Source of the DNA: Methylobacillus arboreus
GTDB taxonomy: Bacteria; Pseudomonadota; Gammaproteobacteria; Burkholderiales; Methylophilaceae
Direction of reading: 5' to 3'
Assembly: GCF_020532725.1 (NCBI RefSeq)
Contig: NZ_JAJAVC010000006.1
Location: 186,001-250,000, forward strand
DNA length: 64,000 bases
Position numbers and translations under genes: made by a program. Shown one piece after another: positions 34,678 through 59,906 of the stretch; the first letter of the stretch is position 1, and each line of letters opens with the position of its first letter. The notes below the pieces were generated by a model that had not been told where the DNA came from, searched no databases, and saw only the letters and a list, made by a program, of their open reading frames with translations.

Positions 34678-35204
34678 ATTTTTCCGAAGTATTTATCAGT
34701 GAATATTATGTTTTTATTGTGGTGTTGGTCTAGTACGATGGGAACCATTGCAAGAGACAAAACAATTCATCAATAAATTAATTACTTGGAGATAATCATG
34801 AAAAAGACATTGTCCATCGTTACGATCGCACTGGTTGCTGCCTGGGCGCCTTTCGCACAGGCTGAGAGTAATCCTGCACTGTTTGAGCATCAGGTGCTGG
34901 CAGCGGCGACGATCAACCCAAGCCGTTTGGCCACCGATGCCCGTATTTCTGAAACAGAAGCGGTGATCAGTCACAAGGATGTGGTGCAGTCACGTAACAA
35001 TCGTCCGCACTTTAGGCATCACTTCAATGTTAACCGGATTGATACTAGTGGTGTGAGCGCTGATCGCAATGCGGGTAAGAAGTTTGTCTATGTTGCCCAT
35101 CCTAAGCATGGTTTCAAGGTGAAGCGCTACGTCGGGGTTCACTAATCCCGGTCTGAAAAGCCATGCACAGGCGGTTGCAGCTGCCTGTGGTGATTCGCCC
35201 CTGA
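34678..35204 (+). repeat. 527-bp inverted repeat, copy A
   Basis: Base for base identical, as read here, to the reverse complement of 55530-56056. Coordinates of the two copies sum to 90734 throughout, so there are no gaps. It contains 120 bases of upstream sequence, the complete small secreted protein gene, and 59 bases beyond its stop. The match stops at CCCCTGA, inside the left arm of a terminator. No transposase gene or target duplication is present. Confidence 0.95.
34798..35145 (+). CDS. Small secreted basic protein of unknown function, copy A
   Basis: 115 residues starting at ATG 34798, preceded by TTGGAGA. The first 22 residues (MKKTLSIVTIALVAAWAPFAQA) are a clear Sec signal peptide with an AQA cleavage site. 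The mature part of about 93 residues is basic and histidine-rich toward its C-terminus (NNRPHFRHHFNVNR, VAHPKHGFKVKRYVGVH) and has no cysteine. No family is recognised. An identical gene lies at 55589-55936 in the opposite direction. Histidine content suggests possible metal or polyanion binding, which is speculation. Confidence 0.75.
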   Translation: MKKTLSIVTIALVAAWAPFAQAESNPALFEHQVLAAATINPSRLATDARISETEAVISHKDVVQSRNNRPHFRHHFNVNRIDTSGVSADRNAGKKFVYVAHPKHGFKVKRYVGVH

Positions 35205-35229
35205 ATGCTTAAGCATTCAGGGGTTACTT
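35198..35229. terminator. Perfect palindromic terminator after copy A
   Basis: A 26-base perfect palindrome, 13 bases each side (CCCCTGAATGCTT with its complement), at 35198-35223, followed by a T-rich tail on the plus strand. It separates the small secreted protein gene from the convergent cytochrome b561 gene. Only the first seven bases (CCCCTGA) belong to the duplicated repeat. Confidence 0.85.
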
Positions 35230-35256
35230 TTTTGGACCACATTAACCTACGCTCGA

Positions 35257-35853
35257 TCAAAAAAATGACATGCGCTTCATGATGCCGTCCTTATCAATGA
35301 ACTGATGTTTCAATGCTGCAGCAACATGCAGCCCTATCAACACGGTCAGCACGATGGCGGATATCTCGTGAGCGGCCACAAAGAAATCGCGCAGGCCGGG
35401 TTCATCCAGCCCAGGTAACACCGGCACAGCAAACCAATGTAACCCATACTTGCTATAAAGCGTCGTCAATAATCCTGTTGCTGGCATGAGCACCATCATG
35501 AGGTACAGCAGATGATGTGTGCCGTGTGCCAGTACTTTCTCCCAGCGCTTCAAGGATTGTGACAAAGCGGGCGGTTGATGCATCAGCCGCCAATACAGCC
35601 TTAGCCCGACGAGAAGAAATACAGTGAAACCGATTGATTTATGTAAATTAAAATAAAAAGTGCGCGGAGAGGCTGCCTCTGCAAGATGCACGGTATACAA
35701 ACCAAGATCAAAGAGATCAAAGCTTGCCACCTTGTCCCCGCCTTTTGGAAGTTCGTTCATGTACCAGCCAAGAGCAAGCAAAAAGAGGATGCCTATGCCA
35801 ACCAGCCAGTGCAGCGCTATTGCGACTTTGGTATACCTGACAGGGTTATTCAT
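35257..35853 (-). CDS. Cytochrome b561-family membrane protein
   Basis: Di-heme b-type cytochrome of the bacterial CybB family, which moves electrons between quinol and other carriers in the inner membrane. The 198 residues have four main hydrophobic segments and the expected heme-ligand histidines: IALHWLVGIGILF near residue 13, FNLHKSIGFTVFLLVGLRL, HLLYLMMVLMPATG and AAHEISAIVLTVLIGLHVAAAL. It lies 75 bases after the beta-propeller gene on the same strand and is probably in the same transcript. Confidence 0.88.
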   Translation of the reverse strand: MNNPVRYTKVAIALHWLVGIGILFLLALGWYMNELPKGGDKVASFDLFDLGLYTVHLAEAASPRTFYFNLHKSIGFTVFLLVGLRLYWRLMHQPPALSQSLKRWEKVLAHGTHHLLYLMMVLMPATGLLTTLYSKYGLHWFAVPVLPGLDEPGLRDFFVAAHEISAIVLTVLIGLHVAAALKHQFIDKDGIMKRMSFF

Positions 35854-35928
35854 GATGTTTCCAACTCAAACAGCACCGTGCAAACGCGCTGCACTGCGAA
35901 TGCACGGCACCAATGTCACTAGCAGTGA

Positions 35929-36882
35929 CTAGTGTGCAAAAACACCCCATGGTGTATCGCCAACAGGAATTTCCTTCAGTGCCTTGTCATGCACGGTATC
36001 AATCACCGTCACTGAATTGGACTTGCCATTGGCGACATACAGTTTCTTGCCATCCGGCGTGATGGCCATATTCCACGGGCGCTTGCCGACGGGAATGGTT
36101 GCAGTCACCTTGTTGGTGGCGGTATCAATCACGGACAAACTGCCATCGCCACCGTTGGAAATATAGACCTTCTTGCCGTTAGGCAACACCTTGACGCCAT
36201 TGGAACGCTGCCCCACCGGAATCGTGGCGATCACCTCGTGTTTGCTGGTATCAAAGACAGAAACCGTGCCAGCCGCTTCATTGGCAACATAAGCACGCGA
36301 GCTGTCAGGCAGGAAGCCAATGCCGCGCGGACGCTCGCCGACCTCGACCAACTTGACCGAAGTACGCTTGGCGACATCAACAATATCTACATACTTGGCT
36401 TCCTCGGCACTCACATACATCCATTTGCCATCCGGGCTGAACTCGGCATGCTCTGGATTTTTGCCCTGCACCTTCACGATGTAGCTCACCTTGTGAGTAT
36501 CGGTATCAATGACAGCCACCGTGTTGTCTTCCTCGTTGGCAGCTGCAATCCATTTACCATCGTGGGAAATACCAACACCTTCTGGAGATTCATCCAGCTT
36601 GATGGTATCGGTGACACTCTTCTTTTTGAGATCAATCACCAATAAAGCATTCTGCTTCTGGTCACTGACAAAAATGTATTTTCCATCCTTGGTGATAGCA
36701 GCGCCACGAGGCTTCTGGCCTGCCTTGAAGGTATCCACGACCTTATCGGTCTGGGTATCAATCACTGAAATCGTCCCCGATTTCTCATTCGTGGAATAGG
36801 CAAAAGGCGCTGCGAGCAAAGAGCCCGAAAACGCCAGCGCAGCCGCAGCCGTAATGAGCTTTAGCTCAAGTTTGCATTGCAT
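35929..36882 (-). CDS. Periplasmic YVTN beta-propeller protein, PQQ-catabolism-associated type
   Basis: A 317-residue exported protein. The start chosen is ATG 36882, with GGAG 7 bases upstream, followed by a signal peptide ending SGSLLAAP. The mature part is built of about seven YVTN repeats, seen as recurring VIDTxTxKV and YVANxxxGTVSVFDT strings with GxxPRG turns between. Proteins of this kind are recurrent neighbours of PQQ-dependent dehydrogenases; their exact function is unknown. The divergent neighbour is a metallohydrolase of the quinoprotein relay type, the same pairing seen in other PQQ clusters. Confidence 0.85.
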   Translation of the reverse strand: MQCKLELKLITAAAALAFSGSLLAAPFAYSTNEKSGTISVIDTQTDKVVDTFKAGQKPRGAAITKDGKYIFVSDQKQNALLVIDLKKKSVTDTIKLDESPEGVGISHDGKWIAAANEEDNTVAVIDTDTHKVSYIVKVQGKNPEHAEFSPDGKWMYVSAEEAKYVDIVDVAKRTSVKLVEVGERPRGIGFLPDSSRAYVANEAAGTVSVFDTSKHEVIATIPVGQRSNGVKVLPNGKKVYISNGGDGSLSVIDTATNKVTATIPVGKRPWNMAITPDGKKLYVANGKSNSVTVIDTVHDKALKEIPVGDTPWGVFAH

Positions 36883-37027
36883 AGACATTCTCCAATAGTG
36901 TTTAAAATTTTGTTTTTGTCGTTTATAACGCATTGTTTCAGACGCCACGATACTTCTCAAGTTCAATTATGGTGTTTACAGAGTTGTATATAGGCATTTA
37001 ACATGCAGTCTTTAAAGTTCCATCCCC

Positions 37028-37969
37028 ATGATACGCCAATTGATGAGTCGCACGATTCCCCTGTTCTTCCTTGCCAGCCTGTTTTGGCTACTGCCCGCAT
37101 ACAGCCTGGCCCAGGAGCTGGGGATCCGAGAAGTAGCGCCAGGGGTTTATATGCACCAGGGTGCACACGAGGATCTGGATGATGGCTATCAGGGCGATAT
37201 CAGCAATATCGGTTTTATCATCGGTACCGAAGGAGTCGCTGTTATCGATACTGGCGGTAGCCAGCAAGTAGGGCAAGCGCTCTTGGCTTCCATCCGCAAA
37301 CTTACAAACTTGCCGGTTCTGTATGTCATCAATACTCATATCCATCCTGATCATATTTTTGGCAACGCCGCGTTTAAGCAGGAACAAGCAATTTTTATCG
37401 GCCATGCAAAACTTGCCAATGCCATGGAGTTACGCAAGGATGCCTATCTCAGGCAGGGACACGACCTCCTGGGAGAGCAATTTTCCGGTAGCGAGGTCAT
37501 CAAGCCTACCCTGATGGTGGAATCCAGTCAGGAACTAGATATTGGCGAGAGAAAACTGCTACTGACAGCCTATCCCAATGCACATACCAATACCGACCTT
37601 ACCGTGCTGGATGAAAAAACGGGCACCTTATGGACCGGTGACTTGCTATTCATTGAGCGTACACCTTCCATCGACGGCGATATCAAAGGCTGGTTATCTG
37701 CCATTGCGCAGCTTCAACAGCTCAAGGGGATCCGGCATGCCATTCCCGGGCATGGCCCGGCAACACAGGACTTGCAGGGAGCGTTGAACAACCAGGCCCG
37801 TTACCTCAATCTGCTATTAAGCGATGTACGCAATGCAATCAAACAGGGCAAAACCATGGAACAGGCAATGGATAGCGCTGCTGCAAGCGAGGCATCTCAT
37901 TGGCAGCTGTTCAATTCCGTCAACCGGCGCAACGTCAATTTAATTTATCCTGCATTGGAGTGGGAATAA
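37028..37969 (+). CDS. Secreted metallo-beta-lactamase-fold hydrolase, quinoprotein relay type
   Basis: 313 residues with a signal peptide ending near AYSLAQE. The metal site is the family HxHxDH motif in NTHIHPDHIFGN (H104, H106, D108, H109), with later ligands in YPNAHTNTDL, LWTGDLLF and IPGHGP. The sequence fits the group annotated elsewhere as quinoprotein relay system zinc metallohydrolase (SoxH-like), found with PQQ-dependent enzymes. The substrate is unknown. It is divergent from the YVTN propeller gene, with 145 bases between the two starts. Confidence 0.85.
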   Translation: MIRQLMSRTIPLFFLASLFWLLPAYSLAQELGIREVAPGVYMHQGAHEDLDDGYQGDISNIGFIIGTEGVAVIDTGGSQQVGQALLASIRKLTNLPVLYVINTHIHPDHIFGNAAFKQEQAIFIGHAKLANAMELRKDAYLRQGHDLLGEQFSGSEVIKPTLMVESSQELDIGERKLLLTAYPNAHTNTDLTVLDEKTGTLWTGDLLFIERTPSIDGDIKGWLSAIAQLQQLKGIRHAIPGHGPATQDLQGALNNQARYLNLLLSDVRNAIKQGKTMEQAMDSAAASEASHWQLFNSVNRRNVNLIYPALEWE

Positions 37970-38050
37970 ATCATGAAGCATGATGGCAATGCCCAGTCTA
38001 TAATCCCATGAATCTTTCCTTCAACGACGCACCATAGTTCATTATACATC

Positions 38051-38893
38051 TTGGCCGCTATTGCCCTCCCCGGATTATTGCCAACAAAGAATCACAGCTT
38101 GGGCTGGGCTATTCTGGCATCGTTGGCATTGCATATCATGCTGATGATGCAGCTACCCATGCTGGATTTCACCGTTCCTGAAAAAACGGAGCCGCAAGTC
38201 CTGCAAGTCGAACTGGCGCCATCCCCTAATGCAACGATGGATAGTGCAGCGATAGAGCCTGCATTGCCTAAGCCAGAAACAATCAAGCCAGCAGAACCCG
38301 TTAAACAACCTGATCCTGAACCGGCGCCAGTACCCAAGCCTGCACCCAAACCCGTGCCGCAGCCACCTAAGCCAACGCCTAAGCCCCCTGAGCCGCCAGT
38401 ACCTTCCCAACCGGCAGAAAAACCTGCGGCAGCCGAGATACCATATGCACCAGCCCCGGCAGTTGTCCCCAATGTCATGACAGCGCCACCTCGGGAAAAC
38501 CCAACGCCTGCTCCTGTTGCTCCCGCTCCTGCGCCAATGCCTGAAACCACGCCAGCCCCGCCACCACCTGGCCCCAGCCAGCAGGATCTAGACGCAGCGC
38601 GTAGCTTGTATGGCAGCATGCTCTCCCGAGCGATTGCCAAATACAAACAGTATCCGAAAATTGCCCAGATGCGTGGATGGGAAGGTGAAGTGTTGCTGGA
38701 GGTGCATTGTGATGATAAAGGCCAGGTGCTCTCAACCCAGGTGAAAAAATCCAGCGGCCACAATGTATTGGATGAACAAGCCATGACCATGGTCAAAAAA
38801 GCGTCGCCGCTACCCCAACCGCCTGAAATATTGCGTAACAACAAAAATCTGGTCATTCTGGTACCAGTACCCTTTACGCTGGAAGCGTCATGA
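38051..38893 (+). CDS. tonB: Energy transducer TonB
   Basis: Couples the proton gradient to outer-membrane receptors. The 280 residues have one N-terminal membrane segment (LGWAILASLALHIMLMM), a long proline-rich spacer of about 110 residues with PxP repeats, and a C-terminal TonB domain (YPKIAQMRGWEGEVLLEV). A stop at 38009 limits the frame, which has no ATG before the membrane segment. The start is probably TTG 38051. A short ATG frame at 38008-38037 (MNLSFNDAP) lies just upstream in another phase. No exbB or exbD is present here. The stop overlaps the histidine kinase start (ATGA). Confidence 0.85.
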   Translation: MAAIALPGLLPTKNHSLGWAILASLALHIMLMMQLPMLDFTVPEKTEPQVLQVELAPSPNATMDSAAIEPALPKPETIKPAEPVKQPDPEPAPVPKPAPKPVPQPPKPTPKPPEPPVPSQPAEKPAAAEIPYAPAPAVVPNVMTAPPRENPTPAPVAPAPAPMPETTPAPPPPGPSQQDLDAARSLYGSMLSRAIAKYKQYPKIAQMRGWEGEVLLEVHCDDKGQVLSTQVKKSSGHNVLDEQAMTMVKKASPLPQPPEILRNNKNLVILVPVPFTLEAS

Positions 38894-40359
38894 GCGATCA
38901 CCCGCAAGCAAAATCACTCAAGGATGTTTTGCTGATCCATGAGTTGACGTTTTTTCTGCTAGTGATTCTTGCGGGCACGGCCGGTGTTATTGGCATGCGT
39001 ATCTGGGATCAATCATCCCAGGAGTCACAACGTATCCACCTCATGGTGCAGGAAATCCAGCAGACCCGCGGCGATTTGTATCGGCAAATGAAAGAGTTGT
39101 TTGACCTGCATTTTCTGAAAGACCCGCATGCGCAAGAGGAATACAACGTCTACACCCTTTCTATCGACGCCCATTTCCGCAAGCTCCTGGAGTTGACGGC
39201 AGATAGCCAGGAAAAAACTGCCATCATGGAGTTGAATGCTAGCTATCAGGAACTGATTCAGGAAACCCAGCAGATCTTTGCGCTGGTAGATAATTACAAC
39301 AACGCAGAATTGGAAAAGGTGCTGAACACCCATCTGGAGTCCAGCATTTTCCACCATTACGAAATCATTTCAGCCCGTGCCGAACGGCTCCTGCTGTTAA
39401 AGCATCGGGAGCTTTCCGCCCGGCTTGAAGATGTAAAACATACTGCATTTACGCTGCTGATCATTCCGATTGGGTTGGCCTTGCTGCTGCTGGTGTTTTC
39501 GCATATTTTCCTGAAGCGGGCCATCGTGCGTCCAATTCGCAATGTGCTCCACGCAACCAGCGAAATCAGTGCCGGCAACCTGGACCACAAGGCCCCTGAG
39601 GAAGGGGTGGCCGAACTGGCCGCCTTGTCTTCTGCCATCAATACCATGGCACACGAGCTGACCCGCAGCCAGGAAGCACTGGTGCGCTCTGAAAAACAGG
39701 CTGCACTCGGCCTGCTGGTGCCTATGCTGGCCCACAATATCCGCAACCCATTAGCCAGCATCCGCGCCACAGCCCAAGTTGCCGACAGCGAGCACCTGGA
39801 TCAGGAAACTCGCGACTCGCTTACTGCGATCATCAGCACAGTAGACCGCCTGGATCGCTGGACCCGCGCACTGCTGGCATATTTGCATCCATTGAAACCG
39901 CACGCCAGCGCCACTACCTTACGCCAGGTATTGCAAGGCGCACTCATGCCATTGCAGCAGAAAATCCAGGAAAAACAACTCGCGGTGCAATTACCTGACT
40001 GGCAGGATATCAATGACCGCATGTTCACCGATGAGAACCTGCTGGAACAAGCCTTATATAACCTACTGCTGAATGCCGTGGAGGCGTCTCCGCAAACAGG
40101 CGAAATTTCAATTCATTGCAATGCTTTCAATGAAAGCCTGCATATCACAATCAGCGACCAAGGCTCAGGCATGCCTTTTACGCCGGATCCGCATGCAGTC
40201 AGCCCCGGCCCAACCACCAAGCGTTTTGGCACCGGCCTGGGCATTCCCTTTGCATTCAAGGTGATGGAGGCGCTGTCAGGCCACATCCACTTCAATAATC
40301 GGGTGAAGGGTGGGACTGTCACTGAAATCACATTGCCTCGTGATCATCAACCCCAATGA
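38890..40359 (+). CDS. Sensor histidine kinase with HAMP domain
   Basis: 489 residues: a membrane segment near residue 22-38, a periplasmic sensor of about 145 helical residues, a second membrane segment near 186-207, a HAMP domain (RPIRNVLHATSEISAGNLD), a dimerisation domain with the H-box AHNIRNPLAS (H282; asparagine replaces the usual glutamate after it), and an ATP-binding domain with NLLLNAVEA, DQGSGMP and FGTGLGIPFA. No response regulator gene lies next to it, so the partner must be elsewhere. It is translationally coupled to tonB, an uncommon pairing. Confidence 0.9.
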   Translation: MSDHPQAKSLKDVLLIHELTFFLLVILAGTAGVIGMRIWDQSSQESQRIHLMVQEIQQTRGDLYRQMKELFDLHFLKDPHAQEEYNVYTLSIDAHFRKLLELTADSQEKTAIMELNASYQELIQETQQIFALVDNYNNAELEKVLNTHLESSIFHHYEIISARAERLLLLKHRELSARLEDVKHTAFTLLIIPIGLALLLLVFSHIFLKRAIVRPIRNVLHATSEISAGNLDHKAPEEGVAELAALSSAINTMAHELTRSQEALVRSEKQAALGLLVPMLAHNIRNPLASIRATAQVADSEHLDQETRDSLTAIISTVDRLDRWTRALLAYLHPLKPHASATTLRQVLQGALMPLQQKIQEKQLAVQLPDWQDINDRMFTDENLLEQALYNLLLNAVEASPQTGEISIHCNAFNESLHITISDQGSGMPFTPDPHAVSPGPTTKRFGTGLGIPFAFKVMEALSGHIHFNNRVKGGTVTEITLPRDHQPQ

Positions 40360-40445
40360 AATTTGTGTGAGCAACATGCCAGAACCTGCTTGCCTTATCT
40401 CTGGTTTTTATCAACAATGAGAGCGTCTAGAGTTTACTATCTGCC

Positions 40446-40901
40446 ATGTTGAACCAAGCGATTCCTGATTTTGAACTACCCTCCACCAGCGGAAAAACTT
40501 TCAGGCTTTCCGACTACACTGGCAAAAAACTGATCATTTACTTCTATCCCAAGGACAACACCCCCGGCTGTACCAATCAGGGTAAGGATCTGCGTGACCT
40601 CTACCCGGCTTTCCAGGCCAGCAATACGGAAATTGTCGGGATTTCACGTGACGGTCTCAAGTCCCACGAGAATTTCAAAGCAAAATTCAGCTTCCCATTC
40701 GAACTGCTATCCGATTCCGAAGAAAAAGCCTGTACGTTATTCGACGTAATCAAGATGAAGAAGTTGTATGGTAAAGAAGTACGTGGCATAGAACGTAGCA
40801 CGTTTGTCATTGATGAAAACGGTGTTCTGGTCCGAGAGTGGCGTAAGGTCAAAGTGGACGGCCACGCCCAGCAAGTGCTCGAATTCATTCAATCCCTTTA
40901 A
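40446..40901 (+). CDS. bcp: Peroxiredoxin of the Bcp/PrxQ family
   Basis: Thiol peroxidase that reduces hydrogen peroxide and organic peroxides. The 151 residues carry the peroxidatic cysteine C42 in YPKDNTPGCTNQG. In E. coli Bcp a resolving cysteine sits five residues later; here that position is a lysine, so the enzyme is 1-Cys-like or uses another cysteine such as that in EKACTLF. It is 11 bases upstream of phoH. Confidence 0.92.
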   Translation: MLNQAIPDFELPSTSGKTFRLSDYTGKKLIIYFYPKDNTPGCTNQGKDLRDLYPAFQASNTEIVGISRDGLKSHENFKAKFSFPFELLSDSEEKACTLFDVIKMKKLYGKEVRGIERSTFVIDENGVLVREWRKVKVDGHAQQVLEFIQSL

Positions 40902-40912
40902 AAGGCAGCCAG

Positions 40913-42310
40913 ATGCTCAGAAAGCGCACCGCAAGCACCAAACTGTTTGTACTTGATACCAATGTGCTGATGCACGATCCATCAAGCCTGTTCCGCTTTG
41001 AGGAACATGACATTTACCTGCCTATGGTCACGCTGGAAGAACTCGACAACAACAAGAAGGGCATGACAGAAGTCGCCCGCAATGCACGCCAGGCGAGCCG
41101 CAACCTGGAGGAAATCGTCGGCAGCAACCTCACCGATCTGGAAAAAGGCTGCCCGCTTGCCATCAATGGCAACAAGCATGTCAGCGGCAAACTGTTTCTG
41201 CAGACAGAGGCCGTCACGACAGAGCTGCCCATGCTGGCTGGCAGCAAGGCAGACAACCAGATTCTGAGCGTGGTGCTTGGGTTGCAAAAATCCCAACCCA
41301 GCCGTGAGGTAGTATTGGTCAGCAAGGACATCAACATCCGCATCAAAGCGCGTGCTATTGGCGTTGCTGCTGAAGACTACTTCAATGACAAGGTATTGGA
41401 AGACACCGACCTGCTCTACACCGGCATGAAAGAGCTGTCCGCCGATTTCTGGGAAAAACACAGCAAGGCGCTAGAATCATGGCAGGATGCAGGACGGATG
41501 TTCTACCGCATTACCGGGCCGCTCTGTAAGAGCTTTCTCGTCAATGAATTTGTCTATTACGAACATGAGAAACCGTTCCATGCGATCGTGCGCTCAATAG
41601 AAGGCAATACAGCCGTGCTGGAAGTCGTCAAGGACTATACCCAGCCCAAGCACAGCATCTGGGGCATCACATCACGTAACCGGGAGCAGAATTTTGCACT
41701 CAACCTGCTGATGGATCCCGAGGTAGACTTTGTTACGCTGCTGGGCCAGGCAGGCACCGGAAAAACCTTGCTCACGCTTGCCTCCGCGCTGACCCAGACC
41801 CTGGACAAAAAGATTTACAGCGAAATCATCATGACACGTGTTACTGTGCCTGTGGGTGAGGATATCGGCTTCCTGCCGGGAACAGAAGAGGAAAAAATGG
41901 CGCCCTGGATGGGAGCATTGGAAGACAACCTGGATGTGCTCAACAAATCAGATGAGGATGCGGGAGAATGGGGCCGTGCCGCCACGCAGGACCTGATCCG
42001 CACCCGCATCAAGGTAAAATCATTGAACTTCATGCGCGGACGTACCTTCCTACATAAGTTCCTTATCATCGATGAAGCCCAGAATTTGACCCCGAAACAA
42101 ATGAAAACACTCATTACTCGTGCAGGACCTGGGACTAAAGTTGTTTGTTTAGGTAATATTGCGCAAATTGATACGCCCTACCTGACTGAAGGCAGTTCCG
42201 GTCTCACCTATGTGGTGGATCGCTTCAAGGGCTGGACCCATAATGGGCACGTCACATTGGTACGTGGCGAACGCTCAAGGCTGGCAGATTTTGCAGCAGA
42301 AATTTTGTAG
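40913..42310 (+). CDS. PhoH-family ATPase with N-terminal PIN domain
   Basis: 465 residues. The N-terminal PIN nuclease-like domain starts at FVLDTNVLMHDPSSLF with the conserved aspartate, followed by LEELDNNKKG. The C-terminal PhoH ATPase domain has Walker A GQAGTGKTLL near residue 283 and Walker B FLIIDEAQNLTPKQ. PIN-PhoH proteins are linked to RNA processing and some act as RNA helicase-nucleases; the role here is inferred only from family. It may be co-transcribed with bcp. Confidence 0.92.
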   Translation: MLRKRTASTKLFVLDTNVLMHDPSSLFRFEEHDIYLPMVTLEELDNNKKGMTEVARNARQASRNLEEIVGSNLTDLEKGCPLAINGNKHVSGKLFLQTEAVTTELPMLAGSKADNQILSVVLGLQKSQPSREVVLVSKDINIRIKARAIGVAAEDYFNDKVLEDTDLLYTGMKELSADFWEKHSKALESWQDAGRMFYRITGPLCKSFLVNEFVYYEHEKPFHAIVRSIEGNTAVLEVVKDYTQPKHSIWGITSRNREQNFALNLLMDPEVDFVTLLGQAGTGKTLLTLASALTQTLDKKIYSEIIMTRVTVPVGEDIGFLPGTEEEKMAPWMGALEDNLDVLNKSDEDAGEWGRAATQDLIRTRIKVKSLNFMRGRTFLHKFLIIDEAQNLTPKQMKTLITRAGPGTKVVCLGNIAQIDTPYLTEGSSGLTYVVDRFKGWTHNGHVTLVRGERSRLADFAAEIL

Positions 42311-42401
42311 TAATAATTGATCACTAAAATGATTCAATCTGGCATAGCCAGTCATAATGACAGGAAAATGCGCCCCCTTGCCGGGGTGTAACAAAGCAGC
42401 G

Positions 42402-43586: not shown

Positions 43587-43605
43587 CCTTTATTCTAGAA
43601 ACAAT

Positions 43606-43635
43606 AAAAAACCCGGATGCAATTCCGGGGTTTTT
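43606..43635. terminator. Bidirectional terminator between lplT and ndh
   Basis: AAAAAACCCGGA and TTCCGGGGTTTTT form a stem with an A-run on one side and a T-run on the other, so it can end both convergent genes. Confidence 0.8.
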
Positions 43636-43659
43636 ATTTCATCCGATGGCCAATGCGGC

Positions 43660-44997: not shown

Positions 44998-45159
44998 AAC
45001 TTCACTTTCCAGGACTAATCAATGTAAATCAGTATACATAACGGCAAGCACAGCTTTACTGCGTGATGACAGTCACTCTTCAGTAATCATGACTTTGGCG
45101 ACAGGCTTGCACAAAAAGCATTACGCTGATTTTACCTCTAAAGCCGGGGCTTCGCGCAT

Positions 45160-45788: not shown

Positions 45789-45902
45789 ACTTTCTCCTTG
45801 CTTTATAAACATTTAAACTTCGACTGCTTTAATCAACTGAATCAGTCTGCACTTCATTTAACGAGTCAGACATGTAACAGTTGACCCAGTTCATGAATTT
45901 TT

Positions 45903-46820: not shown

Positions 46821-46872
46821 TGCCTACTTCCTTCTGCGTTGATAAGCCATCTAACTAATTACTTATCAAAGA

Positions 46873-46904
46873 TAAAAAGCACCCTGTCCTAAGACAGGGT
46901 GCTT
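46873..46904 (-). terminator. Strong terminator between xoxF and xoxJ
   Basis: On the minus strand AAGCACCCTGTC and GACAGGGTGCTT form a perfect 12-bp stem with a four-base loop, followed by a T-run. Transcription from xoxF would mostly stop here, with read-through supplying xoxJ and xoxG, or these genes have their own promoter. Confidence 0.9.
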
Positions 46905-46956
46905 GGGAGCAACTAACCTAATGTCAGCTTTGAATCTTCTGCATCAAATCAGACGA

Positions 46957-48834
46957 TTACAGGCTGAACACGTTCAGTGCACCGCCGCCAGGAGCAGCGT
47001 TGTACTTGGTCAGTTCTTTGTAACCACCAGCAGCGCCCAGCGCATCGGTGTCGTTATCAAGGCCAAGGTTCATCGCTACGCCAGCCCAACCACCGATACC
47101 GGAGAGCACGCCAACGTATTGCTTACCCTTGTGGGTGTATGTGAAAGCATTACCAATCACACCGGAACCTACCTGGAATTTCCAGAGTTCCTTACCACTT
47201 TGTGCATCAACAGCCTTGAACCAACGGTCCAGAGTACCGTAGAACACCAGGTCAGAAGCTGTGGTCAGAACACCACCCCAAGCAGAGAACTTCTCCTTGT
47301 TGTACCACTTGCTCTTGTTGGTCAATGGGTCATAAGCAGCGAAGCCACCCATCACGCCATCAGGACCAGCGAACATGGTCAATGTAGCACCAACCCATGG
47401 CTGACCAGCGATGTACTTGGACTCAACCGGCTCATAGGTCATACAAACGTGGTTGAGTGGGGAGTACACCAGGCCAGTACGTGGGGAGTAAGCAGCAGGC
47501 TGTTGGTCCTTGGTACCCAGCGCGGCAGGGCAGATACCCTTGGCGTTGTAGTCTTGGTGAGTAGAGTACTTGCCATCCTTGTGTGGAACGCCGCTGGCTT
47601 TGTCAACATGAGTTGCCCAGTTGACGAACGGGTGTACCTTTTCTGCGGCGATAATGCTGCCGGTATGTGCATCAAAGGTGTAAGCAAAACCGTTACGGTC
47701 ATGGTGCCATGCGTATGTCTTGCCGCCCTTATCGAACAGGATCACTTCGTTAATACCGTCATAGTCCCATTCATCGTGAGGTGTCATTTGATAACCCCAC
47801 TTGGCGATACCAGTGTCGACATCACGCGCGAAGATAGTCATGGACCACTTGTTGTCACCCGGACGTACGTCCGGGTTCCAAACGGATGGGTTACCAGTGC
47901 CGTAGTAAACCAGATTGGTTCTGTGGTCATATGGCCACCAGCCCCAGGTAGATCCACCACCGTGCTGCCAACCATCCTTAACTGCTTGTGGCTTCAACCA
48001 GGTCTTAACACCCAGGTCTTTTTCAGGGAACTTCAGCTTTTCCTTAGGCAATGCCTTGAAGGAGCCGCCTTCCTTGTTACCGCCGTTGACATCTTCATAT
48101 ACGGACAAAGCGCTGTAGTGCGGGTTGTCCTTGTTGAAGTCATTGCCGATCAGCACTTCGCTGTCAGGACCTGTGCTGTATGCCTTCCATACCAGTGAAC
48201 CATCCTTCAGGCTGTAAGCAGCCAGGAAGCAACGCACACCGAATTCAGCACCAGAACAACCGGTCAGAACCTTGTCCTTGATCACATGAGGTGCATTGGT
48301 GTTGGTGGCACCAACCTTGGGATCATTAACCTTGACATCCCAAACCTTGGCACCAGTCTTGGCATCCAGTGCAACCAGTACGCCATCATTCTGTTGCAAG
48401 AAGATTTTGCCATCGCCATAACCTAAACCGCGGCTGACGTTATCGCAGCAGAGCACAGCTTGTACGGATGGGTCTTGTTTAGGGAAATATGCCCAGATGA
48501 TCTTTTGGTTATCATTCAGGTCAAGCGCGTAGACATTGTTAGGGAATGCGGTATGTACATATAACACATTGCCTACAACAACAGGAGAGCCTTCGTGTCC
48601 ACGGTTTACACCGGTAGCGAATTGCCAAGCAGCCTTCACATTCTTGACATTGCTCTTGTTGATTTGATTCAGGGTGCTATAACCCTGATTGTTATGTTGC
48701 CCACGTGGATGTACCCAGTTGTTAGGGTCCTTCAATGCAGCTTCTTGGTCAGCAGCAGCGGATGCAACCATGGGCAATGCCATAGCCATACCGAAAGCCA
48801 CACCAAGCGCCAGCTTGATTTTGCTCATCTCCAT
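46957..48834 (-). CDS. xoxF: Lanthanide-dependent PQQ methanol dehydrogenase XoxF
   Basis: Periplasmic quinoprotein that oxidises methanol to formaldehyde or formate. The 625 residues start at ATG 48834 (GGAG upstream; ATG 48828 is an alternative) with a signal peptide ending MVASAAA. Eight-bladed propeller features are visible, including W-type repeats. Active-site features: adjacent cysteines C129-C130 in VLCCDN, the metal-ligand glutamate in CSGAEFG (E197), N315 in GTGNPS, and WDYDG with D357 and the extra D359. The extra aspartate two residues after the catalytic one is diagnostic of the lanthanide type; calcium-type MxaF has alanine there. It is followed by a strong terminator, then xoxJ and xoxG. 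Confidence 0.97.
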   Translation of the reverse strand: MEMSKIKLALGVAFGMAMALPMVASAAADQEAALKDPNNWVHPRGQHNNQGYSTLNQINKSNVKNVKAAWQFATGVNRGHEGSPVVVGNVLYVHTAFPNNVYALDLNDNQKIIWAYFPKQDPSVQAVLCCDNVSRGLGYGDGKIFLQQNDGVLVALDAKTGAKVWDVKVNDPKVGATNTNAPHVIKDKVLTGCSGAEFGVRCFLAAYSLKDGSLVWKAYSTGPDSEVLIGNDFNKDNPHYSALSVYEDVNGGNKEGGSFKALPKEKLKFPEKDLGVKTWLKPQAVKDGWQHGGGSTWGWWPYDHRTNLVYYGTGNPSVWNPDVRPGDNKWSMTIFARDVDTGIAKWGYQMTPHDEWDYDGINEVILFDKGGKTYAWHHDRNGFAYTFDAHTGSIIAAEKVHPFVNWATHVDKASGVPHKDGKYSTHQDYNAKGICPAALGTKDQQPAAYSPRTGLVYSPLNHVCMTYEPVESKYIAGQPWVGATLTMFAGPDGVMGGFAAYDPLTNKSKWYNKEKFSAWGGVLTTASDLVFYGTLDRWFKAVDAQSGKELWKFQVGSGVIGNAFTYTHKGKQYVGVLSGIGGWAGVAMNLGLDNDTDALGAAGGYKELTKYNAAPGGGALNVFSL

Positions 48835-48973
48835 TTTTATAAATCTCCATAGTGATACTACTAAGGGTTTAACAAGACCCAGCCCCGCGTATACCACCTC
48901 CCATTTATAATTATGGGTTGTTGCAGCATAGTTGAGACTTTGTCTCTTACTCACTTCAAAGCGAGTAGACTGC
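48835..48973 (-). promoter_or_regulatory. xoxF leader with several small dyads
   Basis: The leader between the proposed promoter and xoxF contains GAGAC/GTCTC with a 3-base gap (48934-48946), TACTC/GAGTA with a 10-base gap (48948-48967), and TGCA repeated at 48971-48984. They may be regulator sites or RNA hairpins; none matches a motif I can name. Two candidate translation starts, ATG 48834 and 48828, lie at its end. Confidence 0.4.
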
Positions 48974-49002
48974 ATCTTAGTGCAGGAAAAAATGTTTTGC
49001 AA
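48974..49002 (-). promoter_or_regulatory. Possible xoxF promoter
   Basis: Minus-strand TTGCAA (49002-48997) and TAAGAT (48979-48974) are 17 bases apart, each matching 4 of 6 sigma-70 consensus bases. It lies about 140 bases upstream of the xoxF start. Modest score, so a transcript map is needed to be sure. Confidence 0.4.
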
Positions 49003-49106
49003 TACTCTGTTTACATTTTACTTACAATTAAATAATTCCTAAACTTGGTATGACAAATTCCCTGAAAAATAAAAATTGCCTCCCAAATTAATGAGAAAAA
49101 TCCCCC

Positions 49107-50057
49107 ATGAGTGACTCACTATTCCCGGAAATCCAGCCCTATCAACAAGACTGGCTCAGCGTTTCGCCACTTCATTCTATTTACTATGAACAGTCGGGGA
49201 GCCCGGCCGGACAGCCTGTCGTCTTTTTGCATGGCGGCCCTGGCAGCGGTTGCAATCCGGGACAGCGCCGCTATTTTGACCCGGCCCATTACCGCATCAT
49301 TCTGCTGGATCAACGCGGCTGCGGACGCAGCACACCACAAGGGGAGACGCAGGAAAACACCACCAGCCATCTGGTCGCAGACCTTGATGCCCTGCGCCAG
49401 CATTTGGGGATTGATCGCTGGCTGGTGTTCGGCGGCTCATGGGGCAGCACCCTGGCGCTTAACTACGCCCTGGCCCATCCTCAACATGTCAGCGGCCTGA
49501 TCTTGCGCGGCATTTTCCTTAGCCGTCAAAGTGAATTGGATTGGTTCTTGCGTGATGTACAGCACTTCTTCCCCGAAACCTGGGCGAAGCTGCTTTCCTA
49601 CCTGCCGCCAGAAGAGCAGCATAATCCCTTAAGCGCTTTTGCCGAGCGCGTTTTTTCAAATGATCCAGCCATCAGCGAACCCGCAGCCGTCCATTGGAAT
49701 GCCTTCGAGGCCAGTATCATGACCTTGTTGCCAACCCCGATCAATGAGCAGGCAATCAATGCCAAAATCGAACTAGCCCGCGCACGGGTGCAAATTCATT
49801 ACATCCAGAACCAGTGTTTTGTCGGCCACCACGACCTGTTGGCAGAAGCAGCTGCCCAATTAAAAGACATCCCCACCGTCATTGTGCAGGGACGTTACGA
49901 TATGGTGTGCCCTCCATTGACAGCGCATCAGCTCCATGAGGCAATACCACATGCCGAGTTCCACATGATTCCGGATGCGGGACATTCTGGCATGGAGACA
50001 GGCACAAGGAGCGCCCTAATTGCCGCAACGGAGAAATTCAAGCAGCCATTACAATAA
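49107..50057 (+). CDS. pip: Proline iminopeptidase
   Basis: Alpha/beta-hydrolase that removes N-terminal proline from peptides. The 316 residues show the oxyanion region FLHGGPGSGCNP near residue 39, DQRGCGRSTPQ, and the nucleophile elbow GGSWGSTLAL with the catalytic serine near residue 110; the acid and base lie in VQGRYDMVCPP and DAGHSG. No signal peptide is seen, so it is cytoplasmic. Divergent from xoxF. Confidence 0.95.
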   Translation: MSDSLFPEIQPYQQDWLSVSPLHSIYYEQSGSPAGQPVVFLHGGPGSGCNPGQRRYFDPAHYRIILLDQRGCGRSTPQGETQENTTSHLVADLDALRQHLGIDRWLVFGGSWGSTLALNYALAHPQHVSGLILRGIFLSRQSELDWFLRDVQHFFPETWAKLLSYLPPEEQHNPLSAFAERVFSNDPAISEPAAVHWNAFEASIMTLLPTPINEQAINAKIELARARVQIHYIQNQCFVGHHDLLAEAAAQLKDIPTVIVQGRYDMVCPPLTAHQLHEAIPHAEFHMIPDAGHSGMETGTRSALIAATEKFKQPLQ

Positions 50058-50085
50058 TCAGCTTAATCAATCGCAGGAGCAACAT

Positions 50086-51372
50086 TTGGCACTCAACCTA
50101 TCCAGGGTCAAACATTTGGGCAGCCATCCGGCGTTGCACAAGTCGCGCCGCGCCTATGCCCGGCATCGCTACAGCACGCCGTTCTTTGTACTGCGCGAAA
50201 CATTGAGCAGCTTCCAGGTACACAATGGCTTTGGCATCTCGGCATCGCTGTCCTTTTATGCCATGTTTGCCCTGATTCCACTCATCGTGCTCATGTTCTT
50301 CCTGCTGAGCCACCTGGTGGTTTCCTCCAATTACGCCACAGTCAAACTGGCTATTCTGGTCAGCAACTTGGTGCCCAATCTCAGTAGCCGCATCATGGTT
50401 GAAGTCTATAACGCATCGCAGCACAAGGCTGCCTGGGGGGTCTTTGGCTTCATCGCCATGTTCTGGCTGGCTGTCCCTTTAGCAGGCGCATTACGCTCGG
50501 CCTTTTACACCATTGCCAGCGTGAAGGAAGCGCCATCTTTCATGCGGCGGCAGGTAAAGGATATTCTTGGTGTTCTCGGTATATTGCTGATGTTTTTCCT
50601 GTTTACCATCCTGGGTCTGGGTATAGAAAAAGTCGTTGAAGTCCTTGAGCCCCATGTCAGCTATTCCAGACACCTCAACTCAGCTACCTCTATCATCCTT
50701 ACCACCTTGCTGATGGCGGTTTTCTACCGGGTTTATTTCCCAGTGCGTCTCCGGTTTGCGCATATATTGATTGGCGCTACTGTCACTGCCTTGCTGTGGC
50801 TTGCCATGCGTCCCGCATTCAGCCTGTTCCTGTCTGTGAACCCCGCTTATGGGGCCGTGTTTGGCGGCATGAAAAACCTGTTCATCTCTATCGCCTGGCT
50901 TTACTACACCTTTGTGGTGTTCATGCTCGGAACAACATTGATTTCCACTTTACGTAAAAAAGACGTCTTGCTGCTGCGTGGCTTGTTCGACCAAATGCCG
51001 GAAGACCAAACCACCTACCTGGAAGAATTGATGGAGCGTTACGGCAAAACCTTCCGCAAGGGAGACTATATTTTCAAGATTGATGACAGCTGTCACGACC
51101 TGTATTACCTTGTATCAGGCCGCATCAAACTGATGCTGGGCGAAAGAGTGCTGCGAGAGCTCAACAGCGGGGATTATTTTGGGGAAATGGCATTCCTGAC
51201 CCAGACCCCCAGGGTGGCAGATGCCATCGTGGTCTCCAACGAAGCCAGGGTTGTGGTGGTCAACGCAGAGAGTATTGAAACACTGCTGCTAGGCGAGCCG
51301 CACATTACCATGAGTTTCCTGCGGCAAATGGCAACCCGCCTACAGCACAATCACATACAAGGCGCAGCCTAG
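50086..51372 (+). CDS. YihY/BrkB-type membrane protein fused to a cyclic-nucleotide-binding domain
   Basis: 428 residues from a TTG start (50086, CAGGAG 5-6 bases upstream); an in-frame extension back to 50020 overlaps pip and is not favoured. Residues about 50-290 are a YihY/BrkB domain with six hydrophobic segments (SASLSFYAMFALIPLIVLMF, NPAYGAVFGGMKNLFISIAWL). Residues about 310-425 form a CRP-like cNMP-binding domain: FRKGDYIFKIDDSCHDLYYLVSGRIKLML, LNSGDYFGEMAFL and TPRVADAIVVSNEARVVVV. The domain has GE in GDYFGEMA and R in TPRVADA, positions that bind phosphate in CRP. So a nucleotide-controlled membrane protein is likely; function unknown. Confidence 0.82.
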   Translation: MALNLSRVKHLGSHPALHKSRRAYARHRYSTPFFVLRETLSSFQVHNGFGISASLSFYAMFALIPLIVLMFFLLSHLVVSSNYATVKLAILVSNLVPNLSSRIMVEVYNASQHKAAWGVFGFIAMFWLAVPLAGALRSAFYTIASVKEAPSFMRRQVKDILGVLGILLMFFLFTILGLGIEKVVEVLEPHVSYSRHLNSATSIILTTLLMAVFYRVYFPVRLRFAHILIGATVTALLWLAMRPAFSLFLSVNPAYGAVFGGMKNLFISIAWLYYTFVVFMLGTTLISTLRKKDVLLLRGLFDQMPEDQTTYLEELMERYGKTFRKGDYIFKIDDSCHDLYYLVSGRIKLMLGERVLRELNSGDYFGEMAFLTQTPRVADAIVVSNEARVVVVNAESIETLLLGEPHITMSFLRQMATRLQHNHIQGAA

Positions 51373-51373
51373 A

Positions 51374-52057
51374 TTAACTGTCTGCCCACATGCGCAATAG
51401 ATTGTGATAAACGCCCGTCAGACGAATCACCTCCGGATCCTTGCCGCCACGCTCAGCGCCCACGGCCTGGATACTGTTATCTAGCTGAAACAGCAGCGTG
51501 CGCTGCGCGTCATCCCGCACCATGCTCTGCATCCAAAAGAACGATGAAACCCGCGCCCCGCGCGTGACAGAGGTGACATGGTGCAAACTGCTGGAAGGGT
51601 AAAGCACCATATGCCCAGCAGGCAGCTTCACCTCCTGTTTGCCAAACGTATCCTCAATCGTCAGCACACCACCGTCATAATCCTCCGGCTCGGAGAAAAA
51701 CAAGGTAGCAGACAAATCGCTACGAATACGGAAGCTGGTACCACGCAACTGGCGGATAGCATTATCCACATGCATGCCGAATGCCTGCCCGCCTTCATAA
51801 CGGTTGAATAATGGTGGAAATACCTTGAGCGGCAAAGCGGCGGAAATGAATAGTGGACTCTGCCCAAGCGCATCCTGGATCAAGTCGCCTATTTGGCGCG
51901 CCACTGGTGAGCCTTCCGGCAACTGCATATTGTTTTTGGCCAGCGCAGATTGACTGCCTGAGGTTACATTGCCATCTACCCATTCCGCTGCATCCATCAA
52001 CTGCCTGCACTGGGCAACTTGCTCCTTGGTTAGCACTTCTGGAATTTCAATCAGCAT
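51374..52057 (-). CDS. PKHD-type Fe(II)/2-oxoglutarate hydroxylase (PiuC/YbiX family)
   Basis: 227 residues from ATG 52057, preceded by AGGATGAAGAAA; the longer frame to 52108 is not supported. Fe ligands of the double-stranded beta-helix are seen as HVD at residues 96-98 and a histidine in [12 protein letters not shown] near residue 160, with the 2-oxoglutarate arginine probably in TRGAR. In E. coli and Pseudomonas the gene pairs with a catecholate siderophore receptor, as here with the upstream gene. It may modify siderophores or receptor-related substrates; the true substrate is not known. Confidence 0.9.
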
Positions 52058-52078
52058 TTTCTTCATCCTGCCATAAGC

Positions 52079-52114
52079 AAAAAACCCTATAGAGGTTAAC
52101 ACCTCCATAGGGTT
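52079..52114 (-). terminator. Terminator between the siderophore receptor and PKHD hydroxylase
   Basis: On the minus strand AACCCTATGGAGGT pairs with ACCTCTATAGGGTT (14 pairs, one G-T) around GTTA, followed by six T residues. It lies just 22 bases upstream of the hydroxylase start, so that gene depends on read-through or its own promoter. Confidence 0.85.
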
Positions 52115-52148
52115 AGAACATGAGATATATCGAACTAAAACTAGATAC

Positions 52149-54314
52149 TTAGAACTTGAAGTTCAGAGAAACAAATGCCAAGCGGCCTGGAGCCACGGTG
52201 GCAAAGTGACGTGTATAGGTCTGGTTAAAGTAACGTTTGTCGGTCAAATTTTGTAGGTTGAGCTGCAGGCTGATACGATCGTCAATCTTGTAATTCGCCA
52301 TAGCATCCCAACGAACATAGGAAGGTACATACAGGGAGTTACCTGGATCTGCATGAACCCTGTCTACATAAAATGCCCCACCACCTAAGGTCAGATCTGG
52401 TAGCACGCTGTAAGTTGTCCAAACGCTAGCACTGTTTTTGGCAATTCCTGGCAATTCTTTGCCCTTATTAGCAGCGCTACCAAGGTTAGTTGAGCCCCCT
52501 AAGAAATCACCCGTTTTGGATTGCTCAGTATCCAAATAAGTGTATCCTGCGAATACATTCCATTTAGCAGTAATCTTGCCTGCCGCACTAAGCTCAATAC
52601 CTTTGACATCGACTTCACCAGCATTAGCAAACACATCCGCTTCAGTTAAGACACGGGCATCATATTTTTGAGTATAAAAAGCCGCAGCGGTAAGTGCCAA
52701 TCCATCTAGCACTTCCCATTTGGTACCAACCTCAAAGCTCTTGGTGCGCTCTGGCCTCAAATTTGCTGTATTCGCTACGAGATTATTACCGTTTTCCTGG
52801 TTACCATCGCCGTTATTTAAGCCTACCGGGGTGCTGGAAGTCGCATATGAAACATAGACATTACCTTGGGAATTGATTTTATATACTGCCCCCAATTGAT
52901 AATTCCAGAAGGTATGCTCAGCATCTGCTACGTTATTCTTTACGTAGAACTTGTCATAACGCAATCCAGCATTTAACAGCCACTTATCATTCAACTCGAT
53001 ACTATCGAACGCGTAAAGAGATCTGTTCCTACTGGTCGTTGTTGAGGAAGGGGTCCCACTCCAGCTAACATCTAAACCTGAAGAGCGATTTGGATCAGGA
53101 TCATACATATTTACAGGACTATTTAATGTACCCGATGTTATAGCGGCAAATTGATCTGTCTCAGCTTTCGACCATTCAAAACCGATATTCACATTGTGGT
53201 TAATATCGCCAGTAGCAAATGCAATAGATAAATCCGTCAGATTGCTAATTGTCTCGGTCTTGGTATACCTGGCTTGGTTATTAAGGTTAAGCAAACCAGA
53301 GGCAGCTCCAGGCGCCTGCACTAAGGCACGAGTCGTGACATATTTATTCTTGGTCACACCATAGCGAGCAGTATTTCGCAATACGAGATCATCAGAAAAA
53401 GCATGCTTAAATTCTAATGTACCAATATCACTACCGGTCTTCTGGTAGTCTTTGTCTTTGAAACCATAGAAGGTATCTTTACTTACATGTAGCGGGCGAT
53501 GATAAAGAGTGCCAGAATTATCTGTATAAGGCAGACCACGATCGGACATGTCATCAGTTTCAAAGTGATACCAATTTGCCGACAAGGAAGTTGGTCCATT
53601 AAGTCCAAGCGTGATAGAAGGCATGAAACCCCAACGCTTCACGTCCACGGAATCACGTCCAGGAACATCCGCGTCATGCACCAATCCTACCAGGCGAATA
53701 GCTGCATCCTCACCAATCATGTAATTGCCGTCAAAAGTTGCACGACGATAGCGGTCAGTCCCTAGACCAATAGAACCGGAAGTAAAGTTATCCGCTTTAG
53801 CACGCTTCGTTACAATATTGATGCTGCCGCCAGCAGAGCCACGGCCATCAAAAGCACCGCTTGGCCCCTTTAGTACTTCCATTTGTTCTATTGCAAACAC
53901 TTCGCGTGTCTGAGCGCCAATATCACGTAAACCATCAACAAAGATTGCGCTTTGTGAGTCGAAACCACGGATAAATGGGCGATCGGTCAATGCAGAGCCA
54001 CCGCCTTCGCCAGAGCCAAATGTGATCCCAGGCGTAGTACGCAAGGCATCCTGGAAAGTATTCGAGCCGGTATCTCGGATCAAATCTTCAGTAATTACTG
54101 TCACCGATTTAGGCGTATCTTTCAAAGGAGCAGTAAATTTCTGATTAGCAGACTTCTGAACCGCATAAGGATTATCTTTTTTGGATTGAACCTGGAGCTC
54201 AGGTAACACTCCCGCCTCTTCAGCGGAGAAAGCTGATCCAGCAAACAATAGCGCAACCGCAGCAGCAGCAGGCTTCAATGCACTATCGTATTTTTGTGTA
54301 GTCGTTTTTTGCAC
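52149..54314 (-). CDS. TonB-dependent catecholate siderophore receptor (Fiu/PiuA type)
   Basis: Outer-membrane receptor of 721 residues. The likely start is GTG 54314 with AAAGGGA upstream, giving a signal peptide [16 protein letters not shown]; the longer frame to 54407 is not signal-like. Plug motifs are [40 protein letters not shown] and [12 protein letters not shown], and the barrel ends with VSLNFKF. The neighbouring PKHD hydroxylase points to the Fiu/PiuA group that takes up Fe-catecholates. A Fur-box-like site lies at 54362-54380. Confidence 0.9.
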
Positions 54315-54361
54315 AATTTTCCCTTTACAACTATTTACAGTTATTAAGAGGCTGGAATATA

Positions 54362-54380
54362 AATAATAAACGTTCTCGTT
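54362..54380 (-). promoter_or_regulatory. Fur-box-like site upstream of the siderophore receptor
   Basis: Minus strand AACGAGAACGTTTATTATT resembles the Fur consensus (about 13 of 19 positions by eye). It lies about 50 bases upstream of the receptor start, a fitting place for iron repression. Confidence 0.45.
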
Positions 54381-54551
54381 ACAAGTAAAATTCGTGATAC
54401 GTTGCAAATAAACAACACAATAACCATATGAAATTTATGGAAATTTCATTAAAATGTTGCCCCTTGATAACGTTATACTCATCAACAGGTTTTATTTAAC
54501 CCATTAAATCGCTTACGTTTTATTCAACCACACCATCGCGAGAGTTTTGCC

Positions 54552-55523
54552 GTGTCCTATATTGTCGTTGCTGCTTTATACAAATTTGCCAGCCTCCCTG
54601 ATTATCAGGAGCTTCAGCCAAGCTTGCTTGCTTTATGTAATGCCGAAGGCATCAAAGGTACGTTGCTACTGGCTGAAGAAGGCATTAATGGCACAGTAGC
54701 CGGTAGCCGCAAGGCGATTGATGCCTTATTGGCCTATCTGCGCCAGGATGCCCGGCTGGCAGATATTGAGCATAAGGAATCGCTCTCGGAGGAAATGCCG
54801 TTCTACAGGATGAAGGTACGGCTGAAAAAGGAAATCGTAACACTGGGTGTGCCAGGAATTGATCCGAATAAAAAAGTAGGCACCTACGTCAAGCCAGAAG
54901 ATTGGAACGCCCTGATTTCAGACCCGGATGTGATTTTGATCGACACCCGCAACGACTATGAGTATGGCATTGGCACATTCAAGGGGGCAATGGACCCTGA
55001 AACCACGACCTTCCGCCAATTCCCGGATTATGTACGCAACAATCTGGACCCGGCCAAAAACAAGAAGGTAGCCATGTTCTGCACTGGCGGCATCCGCTGC
55101 GAGAAAGCCAGCTCATATATGCTGGAACAAGGTTTTGAAGAGGTTTACCACCTGCAAGGCGGTATTCTGAAATATCTGGAAACAGTGCCTGAAGAAGAAA
55201 GCTTATGGGAAGGCGAATGCTTTGTCTTTGACCAGCGTGTTGCAGTCAAACATGGGCTGGAGATTGGAGATTACGACCAGTGCTTCGCTTGCCGTCACCC
55301 TGTATCGGCAGAAGATATGGCATCACCCAAATATGTTAAGGGCATCTCTTGCCCGCGGTGCTATGACAAACTTTCCCCAGAAAAGCGCGCCAGCATTGAA
55401 GAAAGGCAAAAACAAATTGAGCTTGCACGCCTGCGTGGAGAAGAACATATTGGTGACAATGCACGTAAGTATTCCACTATCCACAAACAGGCCAAAATAA
55501 AAAAAACGCCCCGCGAGGCATAA
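54552..55523 (+). CDS. trhO: tRNA uridine(34) hydroxylase TrhO (rhodanese family)
   Basis: Forms 5-hydroxyuridine at the wobble position of tRNAs using oxygen. The 323 residues (GTG start) have an N-terminal domain of about 95 residues ([10 protein letters not shown]), a rhodanese domain with [19 protein letters not shown] and the active loop [15 protein letters not shown], and a C-terminal zinc-ribbon-like part with [10 protein letters not shown] and [10 protein letters not shown]. The last codons form part of the terminator that follows. Confidence 0.93.
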
Positions 55524-55538
55524 GTATCCTCAGGGGCG
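55500..55538. terminator. Terminator shared by trhO and secreted protein copy B
   Basis: CGCCCC...CCTC and its complement GAGG...GGGGCG form a two-part stem with an internal loop (minus strand), ending in a T-run on the minus strand. The right half is made of trhO coding bases, while the left half belongs to the 527-bp repeat. Confidence 0.7.
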
Positions 55539-56056
55539 AATCACCACAGGCAGCTGCAACCGCCTGTGCATGGCTTTTCAGACCGGGATTAGTGAACCCC
55601 GACGTAGCGCTTCACCTTGAAACCATGCTTAGGATGGGCAACATAGACAAACTTCTTACCCGCATTGCGATCAGCGCTCACACCACTAGTATCAATCCGG
55701 TTAACATTGAAGTGATGCCTAAAGTGCGGACGATTGTTACGTGACTGCACCACATCCTTGTGACTGATCACCGCTTCTGTTTCAGAAATACGGGCATCGG
55801 TGGCCAAACGGCTTGGGTTGATCGTCGCCGCTGCCAGCACCTGATGCTCAAACAGTGCAGGATTACTCTCAGCCTGTGCGAAAGGCGCCCAGGCAGCAAC
55901 CAGTGCGATCGTAACGATGGACAATGTCTTTTTCATGATTATCTCCAAGTAATTAATTTATTGATGAATTGTTTTGTCTCTTGCAATGGTTCCCATCGTA
56001 CTAGACCAACACCACAATAAAAACATAATATTCACTGATAAATACTTCGGAAAAAT
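55530..56056 (-). repeat. 527-bp inverted repeat, copy B
   Basis: Exact reverse complement of 34678-35204. Carries the second copy of the small secreted protein gene with its full upstream region. The junction on the trhO side falls inside a terminator stem. The other side ends 34 bases before the LysR-type gene. Confidence 0.95.
55589..55936 (-). CDS. Small secreted basic protein of unknown function, copy B
   Basis: 115 residues, identical in DNA and protein to the gene at 34798-35145: Sec signal peptide of 22 residues, then a basic, histidine-rich mature part ending KRYVGVH without cysteines. Complete identity, including silent sites, means recent duplication or continuing gene conversion. 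The upstream regions are also identical, so both copies should be controlled alike. Confidence 0.75.
   Translation of the reverse strand: MKKTLSIVTIALVAAWAPFAQAESNPALFEHQVLAAATINPSRLATDARISETEAVISHKDVVQSRNNRPHFRHHFNVNRIDTSGVSADRNAGKKFVYVAHPKHGFKVKRYVGVH

Positions 56057-59827: not shown

Positions 59828-59906
<79 letters not shown>

Follow-up and report, generated by a model that had tools for sequence, protein, structure and literature searches.

The window analysed here is a stretch of 64,000 nucleotides of Methylobacillus arboreus DNA (contig NZ_JAJAVC010000006.1, positions 186,001 to 250,000), located within a contig of 839,744 bp (C14) of a 3.05-Mb genome assembled in 17 contigs. It carries two inverted repeats of 527 bp, arms A and B, each containing a gene for a protein of 115 amino acids (aa). 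With a probability of roughly 0.8, the repeat consists of two gene duplicates that evolve in concert, produced by one old duplication and homogenised by gene conversion. That a relative carries this pair too makes gene conversion the probable cause of the identity of the copies.

The original prediction, made from the DNA letters alone, had described two identical 527-bp copies in opposite orientation. This is correct, the arms being exact reverse complements 20,325 bp apart. The elements of the pair are as follows.

34678 to 35204, + strand: arm A, exact 527-bp copy with the upstream region, the gene and the 5′ arm of the terminator hairpin.
55530 to 56056, − strand: arm B, exact 527-bp copy, inverted, at the site adjoining nhaR, where a copy is found in all six genus genomes.
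34798 to 35145, + strand: copy A of the 115-aa gene.
55589 to 55936, − strand: copy B of the 115-aa gene, divergent from nhaR.
34674 to 34689, + strand: operator-like dyad TTCG-N7-CGAA, outer edge of arm A; 11 of 13 positions fit the E. coli NhaR consensus (PMC6307784, in excerpt).
56045 to 56060, − strand: operator-like dyad at arm B; 10 of 13 positions fit, one base differing, at 56057, just beyond the exact repeat.
35198 to 35223, + strand: terminator-like hairpin of copy A, a 26-bp palindrome followed by a T run.
55507 to 55538, − strand: terminator-like hairpin of copy B, with its own 3′ arm, overlapping the end of the UPF0176 gene.
35205 to 55529, no strand: block between the arms, 20,325 bp, conserved in gene order and orientation in all six genus genomes.

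Each arm comprises 120 bp 5′ of the start codon, the intact 115-aa open reading frame and 59 bp 3′ of the stop codon. When mismatches are allowed, the repeat extends to 536 bp (34669-35204 and 55530-56065). Apart from the 26-bp terminator palindrome, the arm pair is the sole exact repeat of at least 25 bp, direct or inverted, in the window, which excludes a chance origin. The dyad forms the outer edge of the repeat. At the other end, the inner boundary (35204) falls within the terminator hairpin of copy A, and the 3′ arms of the hairpins are not alike between the two sites.

To follow the pair through the genus, six Methylobacillus species were compared, the window genome (G000) and five relatives (G001 to G005). 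All six genomes have a copy at site B, flanked by the UPF0176 and NhaR-type regulator genes. The second copy, in opposite orientation at site A, with the genes for the PqqU-like receptor and for cytochrome b561 on either side, is found in G000 and G004 only. In these two genomes the arms occupy the same two sites in the same orientation, with a spacing of 20,325 bp in G000 and 20,526 bp in G004, and the outer edge of the repeat lies at most 10 bp from the start of the same dyad. In the four single-copy genomes, site A contains an open frame of 269-307 codons. The protein of G002 is a quinoprotein dehydrogenase-associated SoxYZ-like carrier (TIGR04557, 242.5 bits for a cut-off of 140), and those of G001, G003 and G005 are 75-84% identical to it. 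In G000 and G004 this carrier gene is missing from site A, and the best matches sit elsewhere, with 49% and 51% identity; one extra weak partial match was seen in G000 (33% over 73 residues). Because a copy stands at site B in every genome while the SoxYZ-like gene stands at site A in the four relatives, site B is the old location and A the derived. The neighbours of the missing carrier gene at site A (window 34588-35256) are still there in both genomes, including the gene for quinoprotein relay zinc metallohydrolase 2 (37028-37969).

The two copies are nearly identical within each genome and strongly divergent between species. Fourfold sites differing between the copies number 0 of 57 in G000 and 1 of 59 in G004. 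Between G000 and G004, 23 of 40 such sites differ in the repeated gene, and 941 of 1,617 over 12 flanking genes. Counted over all aligned coding positions, the differences amount to 0 within G000, 1 within G004 and 84 between the species. The same holds upstream: from the dyad onwards, copies A and B differ at 1 of 124 positions in G000 and 0 of 121 in G004, as compared to 28 of 121 (A with A) and 29 of 121 (B with B) between species. When two topologies were compared, the one joining each copy to its counterpart at the same site in the other species was rejected (difference in log-likelihood 219.9, approximately unbiased test p = 8e-32). The paralogs are thus closer within a genome than the orthologs are between species, as in a tuf-like concerted pair. 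Synonymous and non-coding positions are homogenised as well, as expected from conversion and not from selection on the protein.

The history that these data suggest would begin with the gene adjoining nhaR (arm B). A copy reaching from the NhaR-like operator to approximately the terminator would, in the ancestor shared by G000 and G004, have landed 20 kb away, in opposite orientation, in place of the SoxYZ-like carrier gene. Homologous recombination, presumably RecA-dependent, would later have repeatedly copied one arm onto the other, leaving copies identical within a genome and strongly different between species. Block inversion could go with such events, as a by-product and not as a function. 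Two copies may have been retained for reasons of dosage or by chance. The most economical account is a single ancestral duplication with later conversion in both lineages.

Several points weigh against this account. The inner end of the repeat lies 59 bp beyond the stop codon in G000 and 6 bp beyond it in G004. In the tree of the 345-bp gene, G000 and G004 are not sisters, the two G004 copies joining the site B copy of G003 with a support of 0.145. Only two genomes carry the pair. If the G000 assembly were a short-read one, it could have erased a small number of differences between the two copies. Finally, the hairpins fix no direction for the last conversion: the palindrome of copy A is perfect, yet the shared 5′ arm pairs well with the 3′ arm of copy B too.

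These observations bear on the idea that each lineage recently copied the nhaR-side gene into site A on its own, without long-term gene conversion. The differing inner ends are the main point in favour of such independent duplications, the gene tree gives no common ancestor of the two pairs, and the identity of the G000 copies would fit. However, target site, orientation, outer edge (to about 10 bp) and the missing SoxYZ-like gene are all shared by two species that are sisters in the concatenated tree of the 12 flanking genes (support 1.000), and the differing inner ends would equally come from different conversion tracts. We consider two separate duplications unlikely. An assembly artefact, whether one repeat entered at two places or two distinct copies collapsed into one, might be suspected from the 17 contigs of G000 and from copies identical to the base. 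However, all four flanks are different, the relatives confirm both flanking contexts, and the single-contig assembly of G004 (2,971,517 bp) has the same pair with one difference resolved. An artefact is therefore scarcely credible.

The original prediction held that recombination between the arms would flip the block. The substrate is real: identical inverted arms of 527 bp are suited to homologous recombination, which is physically expected there. In Salmonella, inverted cassettes gave inversion in 5 of 59 selected recombinants, and inversion accounted for up to a quarter of the events with tuf (PMC8262849, in excerpt). From these rates a rare inversion is expected between arms A and B, where it may occur as a by-product. 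A block regularly flipped, with both orientations within the population, is another matter, and the order, the GC skew and the layout speak against it. Comparison of gene order, proposed with the original prediction, gave the same order and orientation in all six genomes, just two of which carry both arms. Both of these show the parental order, an outcome obtained one time in four if flipping were free. The GC skew was computed for the two-copy genomes and for three of the four single-copy ones (G001 left out). In G000 it is −0.068 in the block and −0.093 and −0.109 in the flanks; in G004, −0.085 in the block and −0.089 and −0.097 in the flanks. In both, the block thus shares the sign and approximately the magnitude of the flanking skew. 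The single-copy blocks likewise have −0.081 (G002), −0.101 (G003) and −0.076 (G005), with rough block limits, without cytochrome b561, in G003 and G005. The skew of the G000 block is the lowest in size, yet it is not near the zero expected from long half-and-half residence in the two orientations. This is moderate evidence only, because gene strand contributes to skew.

As to layout, the prediction was right that a flip would break no gene and that each end copy has its own upstream region and gene. The inner neighbours converge on the arms and each arm has its own upstream region and gene, so that a flip would leave every promoter with its gene. The block does resemble phase-variation invertible DNA in lying between inverted repeats. 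It differs from it by the lack of a recombinase among the scanned proteins (20 plus 6, see below), by a length of 20 kb with many metabolic genes, by the absence of promoter re-wiring and by a second orientation that was not seen in the two two-copy genomes. Overall, nothing seen suggests that the block works as an inverting switch, and we regard such a switch as very improbable.

The dyad invites a comparison with the published E. coli NhaR consensus (PMC6307784, in excerpt). Among the eight upstream regions of the six species, the best match to the consensus falls on the same dyad in seven and ties for best in the eighth (site B of G001). The scores are modest and several are not significant alone: out of 500 shuffles, those reaching the observed score number 7 and 60 for copies A and B of G000, 87 and 65 for copies A and B of G004, and 263, 322, 50 and 6 for the site B copies of G001, G002, G003 and G005, respectively. 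A stricter pattern occurs at these loci alone, in four of the six genomes. The argument for NhaR therefore lies in the conserved position of the dyad and not in the score. Since the control region travels with the gene, copy A may obey the regulator encoded beside copy B.

The 115-aa protein appears to be restricted to the genus. Of 150 genomes from the bacterial family, a protein profile matched the six of Methylobacillus (E up to 0.001) and none of the 144 others. An earlier search of 100 genomes, including the window's own, found the gene in all six from the genus, in none of 54 from the rest of the family and in one of 40 from the order; the latter match (49 residues, E 0.004) is weak and was taken as chance. 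The protein has no sequence match in Pfam, NCBIfam or PDB. Judged by eye, its N-terminus resembles a signal peptide, which suggests that the protein is exported, and its C-terminal half is the best conserved part, rich in histidine and basic residues. The AlphaFold2 model used the window protein and three of the five relatives; it is poor (mean predicted local distance difference test score 51.2). Distant, older paralogs of the repeated gene come after a resistance-nodulation-division (RND) efflux operon in G000, G004 and G005 (loci L054, that is G000:C3:53000-65000, L055 and L056), the G000 paralog being a shorter version. The 1059-aa permease of this operon was matched in all three genomes, and the adaptor and outer-membrane protein for G005 only. 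In G003 only a similar end of the preceding gene was seen, by eye. Of six weaker matches, three (L013, L015 and L016) were not used, L016 being poor (35% over 46 residues). The signal-like N-terminus and the position of the paralogs after the efflux operon lead us to guess at a role in the envelope.

The immediate neighbours of the arms are the following.

32422 to 34587, + strand: TonB-dependent receptor, outer neighbour of arm A; best NCBIfam match PqqU, under cut-off (584.2 vs 1200).
35257 to 35853, − strand: cytochrome b561 gene, inner neighbour of arm A, directed at the arm.
54552 to 55523, + strand: UPF0176/rhodanese gene, inner neighbour of arm B, directed at the arm.
56091 to 57026, + strand: LysR-family regulator, NhaR equivalog (238.2 bits, cut-off 219), divergent from copy B.

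The block itself encodes a pyrroloquinoline quinone (PQQ) alcohol dehydrogenase, a MoxJ-type protein, a cytochrome c, a pyridine nucleotide-disulphide oxidoreductase, TonB, a histidine kinase and a siderophore-type TonB-dependent receptor. Of the gene names proposed earlier, xoxF corresponds to the PQQ alcohol dehydrogenase and ndh to the oxidoreductase; these names and xoxG agree with the matches at the level of families. It had also been stated that nothing like a transposase lies beside the repeats. Indeed, Pfam gave no transposase, integrase or recombinase match in the 20 main proteins at 32422-57026 (shorter open reading frames were not scanned; for the beta-propeller protein this applies to the matches listed, 25 of 35), and no recombinase was found in six further neighbour proteins either. 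The arms' own open reading frame, which has no Pfam or NCBIfam match, encodes no transposase, and a test of mobile origin found no match to the 115-aa gene among 72,556 plasmid records.

Around the pair, some variation between genomes was observed. A gene for a PKHD-type hydroxylase adjoins that for the Fiu-like siderophore receptor (51374-54407); at the same place a second receptor occurs in G002 and G003, and a strongly diverged one in G004 (39.6% identity). Genes for an HbpS-like protein and an S9 peptidase (57168-59765) separate nhaR from the sigma-70 (rpoD-like) gene; the gap between the aligned parts of nhaR and the sigma-70 gene is only about 450 bp in G004. In the G001 assembly (L025-L027), the xoxF, histidine kinase and sigma-70 genes are split, perhaps by draft sequencing errors. 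The window also has an RNase P RNA gene (12587-12891) and a tRNA-Met gene (59828-59906), both ordinary.

That duplicates evolve in concert through gene conversion is well established, and the present pair is a new, small, genus-restricted case. The closest known system is tufA/tufB of Salmonella and other Proteobacteria, dispersed copies, inversely oriented in Salmonella, that are homogenised by recombination, which can also invert the interval (PMC8262849 and PMC6053082, in excerpt). As in the Methylobacillus pair, there are two copies, each with its own context. However, tuf encodes elongation factor Tu and its copies are hundreds of kb apart (PMC8262849, in excerpt), whereas the Methylobacillus unit is a small gene, found in one genus only, with copies 20 kb apart and its upstream region homogenised too. 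Excerpts of PMC6053082 list 26 cases of recurrent concerted evolution in prokaryotes, including tuf and amo/hao. The amo/hao duplicates of ammonia oxidisers (Nitrosomonadales) are likewise betaproteobacterial, but involve several genes for central enzymes instead of a single-gene unit. The pair also differs from a composite transposon or insertion sequence pair in that its arms lack a transposase. Among the titles listed, no open-access paper on Methylobacillus xoxF and lanthanides, on gene conversion or on concerted evolution describes it.

A more speculative reading, which we hold to be unlikely, gives the pair a function. The second copy would have displaced the SoxYZ-like carrier in a PQQ/quinoprotein locus and would provide, under NhaR (sodium/alkaline stress), a double dose for a periplasmic quinoprotein or envelope system. 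Conversion would then be selected as maintenance of dosage and sequence, and the lanthanide-methanol block would occasionally flip in the population as a side effect.

Overall, the pair offers a clean, small bacterial case of concerted evolution, in which one short transcription unit occupies two inverted sites 20 kb apart and the single-copy relatives show how the locus probably looked beforehand. How gene conversion and inversion are linked thereby becomes testable in a natural pair. The finding also draws attention to a genus-specific, exported-looking protein, possibly NhaR-controlled, the gene for which replaces that of a quinoprotein-associated carrier beside the lanthanide-methanol genes.

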